Shown here piece by piece: positions 42,477-46,610 of a stretch of DNA of 46,853 nt. Both the position numbers and the translations under genes were made by a program. The notes below the pieces were generated by a model. The model did no database searches. It was not told the DNA's origin and was given only the letters and a program-made list of their open reading frames with translations. How positions within the stretch are numbered: position 1 is the first letter of the stretch; each line of letters opens with the position of its first letter. The stretch covers positions 1 to 46,853 of the forward strand of contig JACCQZ010000337.1 of assembly GCA_013813875.1 (NCBI GenBank). Direction: 5' to 3'. The DNA comes from Gemmatimonadales bacterium (GTDB taxonomy: Bacteria > Gemmatimonadota > Gemmatimonadetes > Gemmatimonadales > GWC2-71-9).

Positions 42477-42632
42477 ATGTACATTGACCCTACCACCGGG
42501 AGCCTCGTGCTCCAGCTAGTTGCCGCCGGCGTCATGTCCGGGCTCGCCATGATGTCCCGAGTACGCGAATCAGTGAAGTCCCTCTTCCGGTCCCTCGATC
42601 CGCGCGGCGGCCGGTGGACTCAGAAGTTGTAG
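42477..42632 (+). CDS. Small membrane-associated protein (MYIDPTTGS type)
   Basis: A 51-residue protein, MYIDPTTGSLVLQLVAAGVM then SGLAMMSRVRESVKSLFRSL. The invariant-looking MYIDP-TGS start followed by one amphipathic/hydrophobic helix and a basic end recurs as a small gene beside glycan- or envelope-related genes. I recognise the pattern but know no function. The ATG has GGAG nine bases upstream. Its 3' end overlaps the next gene's GTG by 19 bases, indicating coupled translation. Confidence 0.75.
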   Translation: MYIDPTTGSLVLQLVAAGVMSGLAMMSRVRESVKSLFRSLDPRGGRWTQKL

Positions 42633-44008
42633 GTGGGTCGTTCCGTGACCCCAGCGGGTTCCTCTATACCCGCAACGGCACCCTCTATCGCCAGGTAAAT
42701 CGCGTCTTCCAAGACCGGCTCGCCGCCTTTGTCGGCTCCGGTCTGTATGACGAGCTTGCCCGTGACAGGCTCCTCATTCCGCACCGCCCGGTGGGCTTGG
42801 AGCTCGCGGCCACGGCTGAGGCGTGCGCGGTGTTGCAGCCCGAGCGGGTCGGATTCATCTCCTATCCCTATGAGTGGCCCTTCGGCTGGCTGCGGGACGC
42901 GGCGCTGCTGACGCTGGAGCTGCAGGAGCGGGCGCTCACCCGTGATTTCACTCTCCGGGACGCCAGCGCCTATAACGTGCAGTTGCACGAGGGGCGCCTC
43001 ATTTTCATTGACACCCTCTCGTTCGAGCCTCGGGTGGAAGGGGCGCCGTGGGCGGCCTACGGCCAATTCTGCGAGCACTTCCTGGTGCCGCTCGCGCTCA
43101 TGAGTATGCGCGACATCCGCTGCGGGAGCCTCCTCCGCTCGCACATAGACGGGATACCCCTCGACCTCGGCAGCCGCCTTCTCCCCGCCAGCACCTGGAT
43201 CCGGCCCGGCACCGCGCTGCACGTCCACCTGCATGCCTGGGCCCAGAGCCGCTACGCCCAGGGCGATTCACGCCGGGCCAGCCGCAAACGCGCCGTGAGC
43301 CGGCAGGCGGCGCTGGGCCTGGTCAAGAATCTTCGGAGCATCATCGAGCGGTTGACCTGGACCCCGGCGGGCACCGAATGGGCCGACTACACTCTGGACA
43401 ACAACTATTCTCAGGCCGCCTCCGCTTCGAAGCGGGAGATCGTCACCGGTCTGCTGGGCGGAGCGGGGCCGCAGGTGGTCTGGGACCTGGGCGCCAACAC
43501 CGGTGAGTACAGCCGAGCGGCCCGGGAGCTGGCACTGCGCGTCATCTCCTTCGACGTTGACCCCGCGGCGGTGGAGCGGAACTACCGGCGGGTGCGCGCC
43601 GAGGGTGAAAGCGGCATCGTGCCGCTGCTGCTCGACCTGGCCAACCCCTCCCCCGCCCAGGGCTGGGCCCATGACGAGCGCCTCTCGCTGGAATCGCGTG
43701 GCCCCGCCGACGCGCTGCTCGCGCTGGCGCTGGTGCACCATCTGGCGATCGGCCACAACCTGCCGCTGGAGCGCATCGCGTCGTTCCTGTCGCGGTTGGG
43801 CAGGAGCCTGCTGATCGAGTTCGTGCCCAAGAGCGACTCCCAGGTGCAGCGTCTCCTGCAGAGCCGCCCCGACATTTTTCCCGGCTACAGCCGTGAGGGC
43901 TTCGAAGCCGCCTTCCGCCGCCACTTCCGTATCGAGGCCGCGCGGCCGGTGGCCGAGTCGGAGCGCACGCTTTACCTGATGACGTCCTGCGCCGCCGGGC
44001 GCGCATGA
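42614..44008 (+). CDS. Kinase-like plus SAM-dependent methyltransferase protein
   Basis: A 464-residue two-domain protein. Residues about 1-240 have SYPYEWPFGWLRDAALLTL and LRDASAYN with D116 and N121 five apart, then FIDTLSFE (D133). This mimics the D(x4)N and metal-Asp of aminoglycoside/protein kinase-like active sites. Residues about 275-464 are a class I methyltransferase with DLGANTGEYS (about 291-300), FDVDP and LALALVHHLAIG. Relatives are annotated only as methyltransferases. The start is GTG at 42614, inside the preceding small gene. The stop overlaps the membrane sulfatase-fold gene (ATGA). Substrate unknown; surface glycans are a plausible target. Confidence 0.78.
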   Translation: MDSEVVGGSFRDPSGFLYTRNGTLYRQVNRVFQDRLAAFVGSGLYDELARDRLLIPHRPVGLELAATAEACAVLQPERVGFISYPYEWPFGWLRDAALLTLELQERALTRDFTLRDASAYNVQLHEGRLIFIDTLSFEPRVEGAPWAAYGQFCEHFLVPLALMSMRDIRCGSLLRSHIDGIPLDLGSRLLPASTWIRPGTALHVHLHAWAQSRYAQGDSRRASRKRAVSRQAALGLVKNLRSIIERLTWTPAGTEWADYTLDNNYSQAASASKREIVTGLLGGAGPQVVWDLGANTGEYSRAARELALRVISFDVDPAAVERNYRRVRAEGESGIVPLLLDLANPSPAQGWAHDERLSLESRGPADALLALALVHHLAIGHNLPLERIASFLSRLGRSLLIEFVPKSDSQVQRLLQSRPDIFPGYSREGFEAAFRRHFRIEAARPVAESERTLYLMTSCAAGRA

Positions 44009-45543
44009 GACCTCGGCTCACCCATCTCTATCCGTTTCTGCTCGCCCTGCCCAGAATCCTCAACATCGTAGTGGACAACCCGGGGGAGTGGAGCGCCGGC
44101 GACCTGGCGGCGGTGCTGGCCGCGGTGCTGGCGGCCTGCGCGGTGGTGTACGGAGTCACTGTGTTTTTGGTGCGCGGCCGGCGGCTGGACCAGCTGCCGC
44201 CTCTGGTGACATTCGCCGCTGTTCTCTGGTTCTACGGCTATTCAGCGACGTTCAATCAGATCGGCCCGTTGCTGGGCCCGGCCCCTCACCTCGTTCTCGT
44301 CGCGGCGGGTATGCTGGTGACCGCCGGCGCGATCCGCTGGCTGAGCAGGCGCCCAGGAGCGAGCGAGCGGCTGGGGGCATTTCTCACCATCGTCGGGGCG
44401 GTGATCGTCGTGTGGCAGATCGTGGGGACGCTGCGGACTATAGTCCGCTCGCGAGCGGATCTGGGGCAGAGCCAGGTGATCCGTCGGCTGAGCCGCCCCA
44501 TCGGCCCTGCGCCCACCTCTACCGGTTCACGGCCGGACATCTACCTGATCGTGCTCGACGAGTACGCCAACTCCGGCGAGCTCCGCGAACGGTTCGGGTA
44601 CGATAACACCGCCTTCGAGGACAGCCTGGGCCGACTCGGTTTCGTGATCCCCCGCTCGGTGCGGAGTAACTACGCTCACACCCTGCTCTCGATCCCGTCT
44701 CTCCTGAACGCTTCGCACCTGACCGACCTCACGGGCGAGCTGGGCGCTGCCGCCACCGATCCGACGGTGCCGAACCATCTGGCGGAGTACAACCGCAGCA
44801 TGCGGTTCCTCAACGCCAGAGGCTACAGCATCCGGTTCTTTCCGTCGCTCTGGTGGGGGGCCACCCGCCGGAGCGAGCTCGCCGACGTCGAATACCAGCC
44901 GTGGCGGGGGTTTTCTCTTACCCGCGCGCTGAGTCGGTCGGAGCTGCGCCGGACGGTGCGCCGCCTTACGGCCCTCAGTCTGTTGCCGGGGCACAGCGCC
45001 GCCGATGCCGAGTACGTGCGGCAAACCTTCGCGGGGCTCGCCGGAGTGCCTTCGGTAGAGGCGCCGACGTTCACGTTTGCACACGTACTGAGTCCGCACG
45101 CGCCCTATGTGCTCGACGGAGATTGCCAGGCCACGGAGCTCACCCGCCGCCGCGGCGCCGCCCAGGCGGGGGCCTACCTCGACCAGCTTCGGTGTGTAAA
45201 CCGGCTGGTTCTGAACCTGGTCACTACGCTGCTGACCAGGTCGAAGGAACCACCGGTGATCCTGTTGCAGGGGGATCACGGCACCAGTACCCTTCGCTAC
45301 TTCTCGGCTCCGAGCGCGGAACTGATCCCGCCGGACGCCGCCCGTGAGCGGCTGGGCGCCTTCGGTGCCTACTATCTGCCGGGCGCGGGCGCCACGCTCC
45401 CCGATACCGTCACGGTGGTGAATGTCATGGGCCATGTGCTCCGCGGCTACTTCGGGGCCGAGCTCCCCTCGGAGCCGAACGACAGCTATCTCTCCCTGGA
45501 ACAGTCGCCCTATGATCTTCACCGCGTGACCCGGCTTCACTGA
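44005..45543 (+). CDS. Membrane-anchored sulfatase-fold protein
   Basis: A 512-residue protein with four or five hydrophobic segments in residues 1-150 (at about 33-57, 66-90, 94-112 and 124-143). An alkaline phosphatase/sulfatase-fold domain follows (about 175-480). Motifs: DIYLIVLDEYAN (D178, D185), SNYAHTLLSIPSLLN (likely nucleophile T226), HVLSPHAPY and LLQGDHGTS. The layout resembles LtaS or phosphoethanolamine transferases, which move head groups between lipids and glycans. The presence of Thr rather than Cys in the nucleophile segment argues for a transferase rather than a formylglycine sulfatase. The ATG overlaps the previous stop. Confidence 0.78.
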   Translation: MRPRLTHLYPFLLALPRILNIVVDNPGEWSAGDLAAVLAAVLAACAVVYGVTVFLVRGRRLDQLPPLVTFAAVLWFYGYSATFNQIGPLLGPAPHLVLVAAGMLVTAGAIRWLSRRPGASERLGAFLTIVGAVIVVWQIVGTLRTIVRSRADLGQSQVIRRLSRPIGPAPTSTGSRPDIYLIVLDEYANSGELRERFGYDNTAFEDSLGRLGFVIPRSVRSNYAHTLLSIPSLLNASHLTDLTGELGAAATDPTVPNHLAEYNRSMRFLNARGYSIRFFPSLWWGATRRSELADVEYQPWRGFSLTRALSRSELRRTVRRLTALSLLPGHSAADAEYVRQTFAGLAGVPSVEAPTFTFAHVLSPHAPYVLDGDCQATELTRRRGAAQAGAYLDQLRCVNRLVLNLVTTLLTRSKEPPVILLQGDHGTSTLRYFSAPSAELIPPDAARERLGAFGAYYLPGAGATLPDTVTVVNVMGHVLRGYFGAELPSEPNDSYLSLEQSPYDLHRVTRLH

Positions 45544-45551
45544 GCACACTC

Positions 45552-46610
45552 ATGCAACGCACGAACGCGCTGTCGCTGATCGCCGTTCTTCTCGCGCTGG
45601 CGGGCCTCTCGTGCGGGCGGGCGCCGGGTGCCGGTCCTCCGCTTCCTGATACCGTGCCGGCCGATCCTCGGGCGCTGCTCTCGGCCCTGGCTGCCGACTC
45701 CATGGAAGGGCGGGCCACCGCCACGGCGGGGTCGGCGAGGGCGGCACGCCTGATTGCGGGGCGAATGCGGGCCCTCGGACTCGAGCCGGCGGGCGACAGC
45801 GGCTACTTCCAGCGGGTGCCGCTCACCCTGACGCGCGGGGCCGATGGCGCCAGAGGGCTCCAGCTTCTGGGGCCCGGGCATGCGGACAGCGCGCCGGCGG
45901 GACAACCGGTGATGGACGTCAACGTCATCGGCCTCCTCCGCGGCGTCGACTCCGCGCTGGGGGATGAGGCGGTCGTGGTCGGCGCCCACTTCGACCATCT
46001 CGGCATCGGCGCGCCGGTAGCGGGCGACTCGATCTACAACGGGGCGGACGACGACGCGTCGGGCGTCGTCGCCGTGCTCGGTGCCGCTCAGGCGCTGGCC
46101 GGCGGGCCGCCGCCGCGGCGCACCGTGGTGTTCCTGATCACCACCGGCGAGGAGCAGGGGCTGCTCGGCACCCGCTGGTACATTGATCATCCGGCCGTGC
46201 CGCTGGAGCGGACGGTCGCCGATCTTCAGGTCGAGATGATCGGCCGGCCCGACTCGCTTGCGGGCGGCCCTGGCCGCGCGTGGCTCACCGGCTACGAACG
46301 CTCGACCATGGGCCGGCAGCTCGCCGCGGCGGGCATCCCCGTCGTGGATGACCCCCGGCCCGCGTTCGACTTCTTTCTGCGGAGCGACAACATCGCATTC
46401 GCCCGCCGCGGGATCCCGGCCCACACCCTCTCCTCCTACAATCTCCACACCGATTATCACCAGCCCTCCGACGAGGTCGAGCGGGTGGACTTCGATCATC
46501 TCGCGCGGCTGCTGGACGCCACGGCGCGGGCGGTGCGCGTGCTGGCCGACGGAGACGCTCCCCGGTGGAACCCAGGCGGCCGGCCCGAACCGTCCGGCGC
46601 CGGGTCATGA
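45552..46610 (+). CDS. M28-family metallopeptidase lipoprotein
   Basis: A 352-residue protein with a signal sequence ending in a lipobox (AGLSC, Cys21). The M28 catalytic domain binds two zinc ions through GAHFDHLG (His), NGADDDASGVV (Asp), TTGEEQGLLG (Glu pair), a VEMIGRPD segment and YHQPSDEVER (His). These are aminopeptidases or carboxypeptidases; membrane anchoring puts it in the periplasm. The ATG is 8 bases after the preceding stop, so it may be co-transcribed with the trio upstream. Its stop overlaps the next start. Confidence 0.9.
   Translation: MQRTNALSLIAVLLALAGLSCGRAPGAGPPLPDTVPADPRALLSALAADSMEGRATATAGSARAARLIAGRMRALGLEPAGDSGYFQRVPLTLTRGADGARGLQLLGPGHADSAPAGQPVMDVNVIGLLRGVDSALGDEAVVVGAHFDHLGIGAPVAGDSIYNGADDDASGVVAVLGAAQALAGGPPPRRTVVFLITTGEEQGLLGTRWYIDHPAVPLERTVADLQVEMIGRPDSLAGGPGRAWLTGYERSTMGRQLAAAGIPVVDDPRPAFDFFLRSDNIAFARRGIPAHTLSSYNLHTDYHQPSDEVERVDFDHLARLLDATARAVRVLADGDAPRWNPGGRPEPSGAGS

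Follow-up and report, generated by a model that had tools for sequence, protein, structure and literature searches.

The genes noeA and noeB of S. meliloti act in nodulation as host-range genes (Ardourel et al. 1995, as cited in PMC9758233, PMC9048898 and PMC4053727). They affect host range toward particular Medicago species, modification of the Nod factor has been hypothesised as their role, and a strain with a truncated noeA failed to nodulate many M. truncatula lines. In 2022, NoeA and the Legionella protein Lani_1194 were described as a kinase-plus-methyltransferase family: about two thousand homologues of the kinase domain were collected, 94% of them with both domains, and the structure model of a NoeA homologue shows a kinase fold (PMC9758233). 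According to the same paper, 65% of 816 neighbourhoods contain Lani_1193 and 38% contain Lani_1195, and NoeB, which is related to Lani_1195, has an alkaline phosphatase (AP) fold (PMC9758233). The literature that we searched yielded no biochemical activity or role for NoeA, NoeB or any enzyme of the family. Kinase and methyltransferase activities are also combined in WbdD of E. coli O9a, which caps the O antigen with methyl phosphate (PMC3482155); the D351A mutant of WbdD is kinase-dead, and H132A/H133A abolishes methylation of the sugar phosphate.

We analysed a stretch of 46,853 nucleotides (the window; contig JACCQZ010000337.1, assembly GCA_013813875.1) from a Gemmatimonadales bacterium, a soil Gemmatimonadota organism. 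On its forward strand lie three consecutive open reading frames of 51, 464 and 512 codons: a gene for a small membrane protein (42477..42632, ATG start), a NoeA-family kinase-methyltransferase fusion (42614..44008, GTG start) and a NoeB-type integral membrane enzyme of the AP superfamily (44005..45543, ATG start). An independent check of the reading frames returned the same coordinates and the overlaps of 19 and 4 bases (ATGA) that had been described before, with GTG 42614 as the earliest possible start in the NoeA-like frame. A gene for an M28 peptidase starts at 45552, 8 bases 3' of the trio. Because it trails the trio in only two of the eight near relatives checked, we rejected it as a fourth member of the conserved module.

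The S. meliloti locus was first met in a plasmid search, in which some of the records were annotated as noeA. On pSymA the order is nodL, a hypothetical protein of 71 amino acids (the small ORF), noeA and noeB. With all S. meliloti rows left out, the profiles still recovered the small ORF (1.1e-18), NoeA (6e-128) and NoeB (1e-30) side by side. An iterated search found NoeB at 1e-67, and the middle protein of the window is 37% identical to S. meliloti NoeA over its full length (470 columns, E=1e-81). Based on the pSymA order, the NoeA identity and the recovery by profile, the window trio is the Gemmatimonadota form of small ORF-noeA-noeB: three homologous proteins, encoded in matching gene order, and a small ORF that overlaps noeA in both. 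It differs from the S. meliloti operon in lacking nodL and the symbiosis context, and the third protein is only distantly similar to NoeB (27% over the best segment). In the Legionella loci examined, NoeA is 52-53% identical to the window protein, and both the kinase-then-methyltransferase architecture and the neighbours are shared with the window trio, but the order is NoeB-like, NoeA, small, with the small gene downstream. Given this order, Lani_1193 is probably the small protein. The earlier note had taken the trio for a conserved module without a described function; conserved it is, but it corresponds to the NoeA/NoeB module, for which host-range genetics are known and whose kinase-methyltransferase architecture and gene neighbours a 2022 paper set out (PMC9758233).

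A scan with the middle protein retrieved more than 300 relatives from many phyla. By its full-length similarity, with a kinase-like half first and a class I methyltransferase half second, the protein belongs to the NoeA (Lani_1194) family. The kinase-like half (residues ~9-240; 42638..43333, forward strand) carries the catalytic-loop residues D116 (42959-42961) and N121 (42974-42976) and the metal-binding D133 (43010-43012), which together span 42959..43012 and show the order and spacing of a kinase catalytic-loop Asp and Asn followed by a DFG-like Asp. The class I SAM-dependent methyltransferase half (residues ~286-456; 43469..43981, forward strand) contains the D291xGxxxG motif, D314 and H375-H376. 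In an alignment of 63 homologues, which included S. meliloti and reached down to 27% identity, R11, D12, G15, R26, E87, D116, N121, D133 and S136 were invariant in the first half, and D291, G293, G297, D314, H375, H376, E402 and D408 in the second. The kinase-like pattern previously read from this one sequence is thus at the positions given for it and invariant across the family, and homology together with the invariant catalytic residues supports the proposed fusion with a methyltransferase. An AlphaFold model, for which three alignment rows from plasmid records were left out, was of very high confidence (pLDDT 93.9, pTM 0.93). The succession of its elements (two strands, a helix, two strands, a linker, a long helix, the catalytic loop, a strand pair and the Asp) agrees with a small kinase fold that precedes a Rossmann methyltransferase. 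Foldseek matches of the model were methyltransferases, with about 220 aligned columns, the size of one domain, and WbdD ranked third by E-value; this search of the whole model, dominated by the methyltransferase half, gave no structural match to a kinase fold. The comparison with kinase folds that the earlier note had suggested is here an indirect one, by catalytic residues, secondary-structure order and profile matches to kinases, beside the published model of a homologue.

Among PDB sequences, the NoeA profile matched WbdD best, though weakly (E=0.002), and a PDB search with the single middle-protein sequence gave no match. A second stretch of WbdD, GFWHDDVRPWNVMVDA...LIDFGS, aligned below significance with the D116/N121/D133 loop. 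The profile of the kinase half alone had a single PDB match, the RIO3 kinase, weak at E=0.66 and located at this loop. By alignment numbering, WbdD D351 corresponds to D116 and H132/H133 to H375/H376, so that the catalytic residues of a protein with both activities match invariant residues of the NoeA family. Such an HH pair occurs also in some methyltransferases that do not act on phosphate. In WbdD, which also has a coiled coil, the methyltransferase comes first and the kinase second, and the reverse domain order of the NoeA family rules out that the middle protein is a member of the WbdD family. WbdD also differs in having an ABC exporter as partner and no NoeB-like enzyme, and its sequence similarity to the NoeA family is weak. 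By analogy, the middle protein may nevertheless work like WbdD.

The third protein consists of an N-terminal region with five predicted membrane helices (44005..44499, forward strand; residues 9-24, 31-55, 64-89, 94-114 and 117-155) and an extracytoplasmic AP-fold domain (44527..45540, forward strand), as seen in a structure model with a pLDDT of 93.2. Its closest folds were EptC, PbgA, MCR-1, EptA and LtaS, among sulfatases. The metal/nucleophile set comprises D185 (44557), T226 (44680), H360 (45082) and D424-H425 (45274-45279); D185, H360, D424 and H425 are invariant in the family. Its nucleophile position is occupied by Thr, and in the window protein Thr226 probably serves as the nucleophile. 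By profile similarity across both the AP domain and the membrane N-terminus, the protein belongs to the NoeB family. With its helices, T226, D185, D424 and H425, it has the features expected of an AP-superfamily head-group transferase of the EptA/LtaS type. It shares with EptA/EptC/MCR and LtaS the membrane-anchored AP fold, the Thr nucleophile and the Asp/His metal site, and with EptA-like proteins the five N-terminal membrane helices, but is only 12-15% identical to them. Against the Pfam Sulfatase family it scored 24.4, just below the cut-off of 25. The formylglycine motif Cys/Ser-x-Pro-x-Arg is absent from the nucleophile position, where Thr is found (HTLLS in the window), which rules out a type I (formylglycine) sulfatase: the protein has a sulfatase fold but is no sulfatase. 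Both earlier descriptions, as a membrane protein resembling head-group transferases and as sulfatase-fold, therefore hold, the latter as a statement about the fold. The NoeB-like gene is present in a single copy in the host genome.

The small protein begins with M-Y-I-D-P-T-T-G-S-L-V-L-Q, followed by one predicted membrane helix (residues 10-26) and a basic C-terminal tail. Alignment of 45 members defined a conserved YxDPxxGS-x3-Q motif (42477..42515, forward strand), in which D, S and Q are invariant; rare variants occur in other loci, including YLDM, YIGA and YIDPGNAS, which were recovered by looser patterns or by profile. The family core consists of [Y/H]-x-D-P-x-x-G-S-x3-Q, the membrane helix and a basic segment, in this order. 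Many members carry the motif straight after a signal-peptide-like stretch ending in AxA, and in the window copy it starts from Met1. By the positive-inside rule, this bitopic protein should have its motif outside and its basic tail inside. It matched no Pfam or NCBIfam family, and a literature search on the DPGTGS/DPGSGS motif returned unrelated papers only. Relative to same-order relatives, dN/dS was ~0.15-0.43, indicating purifying selection, and a protein profile that included the window copy found a single copy in the host genome (E=8e-16). Hence, the reading frame that the earlier note had flagged as easily missed is a real gene, as judged by its conserved position in relatives, its dN/dS and its profile match.

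The small gene is tightly associated with noeA. In 874 kb of six-frame sequence, the motif occurred 75 times beside noeA and not once elsewhere, and the small gene adjoined noeA in 97 of the 102 loci with enough room, mostly upstream of it; in five loci, those of Legionella and Desulfatitalea among them, it lay downstream. NoeA was present in 23 of 298 Gemmatimonadota genomes, and all 19 strong matches to the small protein (E<1e-10) fell among these. This amounts to 19/22 assessable NoeA genomes against 0/275 without NoeA, although Fisher tests treat genomes as independent and so overstate the significance of this and the following comparisons. In the four NoeA genomes without a strong match, the contig was cut in one and NoeA was divergent in three. 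Five further genomes had weak matches only (E 0.01 to 2e-6), of which the strongest (G103) adjoins a NoeB-like gene. The NoeB family was found in 20 of the 23 NoeA genomes and strongly in 2 of 22 without NoeA (45 genomes searched); the three NoeA genomes that lack it are those with divergent NoeA.

In 81 Chloroflexota genomes, a strong small match was present in 41/41 with NoeA and 0/40 without, and the NoeB family in 34/41 versus 3/40; seven NoeA genomes thus lacked the NoeB family, and at least two of these have another PF00884 protein beside NoeA. In 237 Myxococcota genomes, NoeA lay within 1.5 kb of 24 of the 27 small genes, and a NoeB-like gene accompanied two more. Gene orders were permuted and the tree mixes phyla, which argues against mere shared ancestry as the cause of co-occurrence. 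Adjacency and co-occurrence across genomes, which had been suggested as a check, thus bear out the trio as a conserved unit. We also looked for a fixed glycan-gene neighbourhood around the trio, and the signal was weak: glycosyltransferases were the commonest neighbour family, yet accounted for only about 6 of 91 neighbours, and most neighbourhoods outside the trio had no fixed glycan cluster. A divergent NoeA relative sits within a NeuB/RmlD/glycosyltransferase/capsule cluster.

The reading we slightly favour, at little better than even chances, is that the trio works in a WbdD-like way, as a NoeA/NoeB-type module for the decoration of a glycan or glycolipid anchored in the membrane. The earlier note had likewise proposed phosphorylation, methylation and group transfer as putative activities. 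Against this reading stand the weakness of the WbdD similarity, the reversed domain order, the Foldseek search that gave no kinase match and the rarity of glycan clusters around the trio. We infer this class of substrate from the divergent NoeA relative in the capsule cluster, and the methyl-phosphate chemistry by analogy with WbdD. The kinase half of the NoeA-like protein would phosphorylate a sugar hydroxyl at the inner face of the membrane, and its methyltransferase half would then methylate the phosphate, as WbdD does on the O9a antigen, leaving a methyl-phosphate mark. The small bitopic protein would tether or couple the enzymes at the membrane. The active site of the NoeB-like protein, which has a Thr nucleophile, would lie outside and act on that molecule after its export, transferring or trimming a phospho-group. 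For S. meliloti, the target would be the Nod factor or a surface glycan recognised by Medicago. To our knowledge, Chloroflexota are generally without LPS, and we rejected LPS as the general substrate since the module occurs in this phylum.

The main alternative, possible yet doubtful to us, concerns the small protein, which could serve AP-superfamily enzymes in general as an adaptor; NoeA would be a later addition and would act in a different reaction from NoeB. Indeed, small genes are paired with NoeB-like genes in the absence of NoeA in G008, G080 and two Myxococcota loci, and a distant subfamily (YIDPxTGG) precedes a PF01663 type I phosphodiesterase in ten Chloroflexota loci, in several of which genes for a sulfotransferase and/or a PF00884 sulfatase come next. 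Against a general adaptor, strong small homologues in Chloroflexota were found in exactly the NoeA genomes, and there the small gene stays beside NoeA even when the NoeB-like gene lies elsewhere. The phosphate and a sugar O-methyl group could also be two separate decorations of one glycan, with a third contributed by the NoeB-like enzyme, which would take phosphoethanolamine or phosphoglycerol from a phospholipid donor. We regard this as unlikely: phosphoethanolamine transferases are top folds of the third protein, and the Foldseek matches of the methyltransferase half extend to sugar O- and N-methyltransferases, NodS among them, but the kinase and methyltransferase are always fused and the phosphate-binding His pair of WbdD is conserved, which favours sequential action on one phosphate, and the NoeB-like enzyme is unlinked to NoeA in several genomes.

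Less probable again is a regulatory role, with the NoeA-like protein as a small-molecule or protein kinase plus an independent methyltransferase and with membrane partners that sense or signal. The closest sequence match of the kinase half, RIO3, is a Ser/Thr kinase, one of the best-ranked folds for the third protein, PbgA/YejM, is a signalling AP-fold member, and a Legionella NoeA homologue is listed as a predicted effector (PMC9758233). However, the third family has lost none of its metal/nucleophile residues, as a degenerate sensor would have, the catalytic residues of both the kinase and methyltransferase halves are all invariant, the module extends across many free-living phyla, and the divergent relative lies in a capsule cluster. 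At the speculative end, and least probable of the readings considered here, the small YxDPxxGS-x3-Q protein would be the defining subunit of a trans-membrane relay that holds the kinase-methyltransferase and an AP-superfamily enzyme, such that the methyl-phosphodiester made inside would be the substrate of the Thr-enzyme outside, for transfer or removal; in a parallel version, the type I phosphodiesterase would replace NoeA/NoeB.

The trio is a further instance of a widespread, known module without biochemical characterisation, whose noeA/noeB genetics date back to 1995. New here are the connection made between the window genes and noeA/noeB, the residue correspondence with WbdD and the small protein, which is an unnamed family and a near-universal NoeA partner also found with other AP-superfamily enzymes. 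The WbdD residue link leads to a concrete prediction, namely a methyl-phosphate on a glycan. For S. meliloti, we predict that the module also requires a third component, namely the so far overlooked small ORF that lies between nodL and noeA and is part of a small-protein family that crosses phyla.

Divergent NoeA relatives (27% identity) in genus g31 were encoded without small or NoeB-like genes (loci L144-L146), and at L146, the only one of these loci examined, the gene lay within a cluster comprising NeuB, RmlD, glycosyltransferase and capsule genes. In many Anaerolineales (L018, L012, L044, and L006), the small-noeA pair was followed by a conserved membrane protein of ~345 aa, which differs from NoeB. 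A NoeB-like gene was paired with the small gene in the absence of NoeA at L138-L141 (genomes G008 and G080); G008 carried three such loci, and its NoeA gene was located away from all of them.

At Chloroflexota loci L147-L156, a distant paralogue of the small protein (MYIDPNTGGMLFQ...) was encoded immediately upstream of a type I phosphodiesterase (PF01663, ~608 aa) that lacks a signal peptide; in several cases, genes for a sulfotransferase and/or a PF00884 sulfatase came next. Neither a NoeA nor a NoeB-like gene was found within 1.5 kb of the small-protein gene of a Myxococcota locus (L187).

Downstream of the window trio, an M28 peptidase gene (45552-46610) starts 8 bases past its end, an arrangement present in only two of eight near relatives; the next gene, from 46565 to the window end, presumably encodes a YihY-type membrane protein.

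The small-protein family also includes an ORF of 71 aa between nodL and noeA in the S. meliloti pSymA region (L112:7754-7969). Annotated only as hypothetical, this ORF probably represents a third member of the noeA/noeB gene set that had been overlooked.
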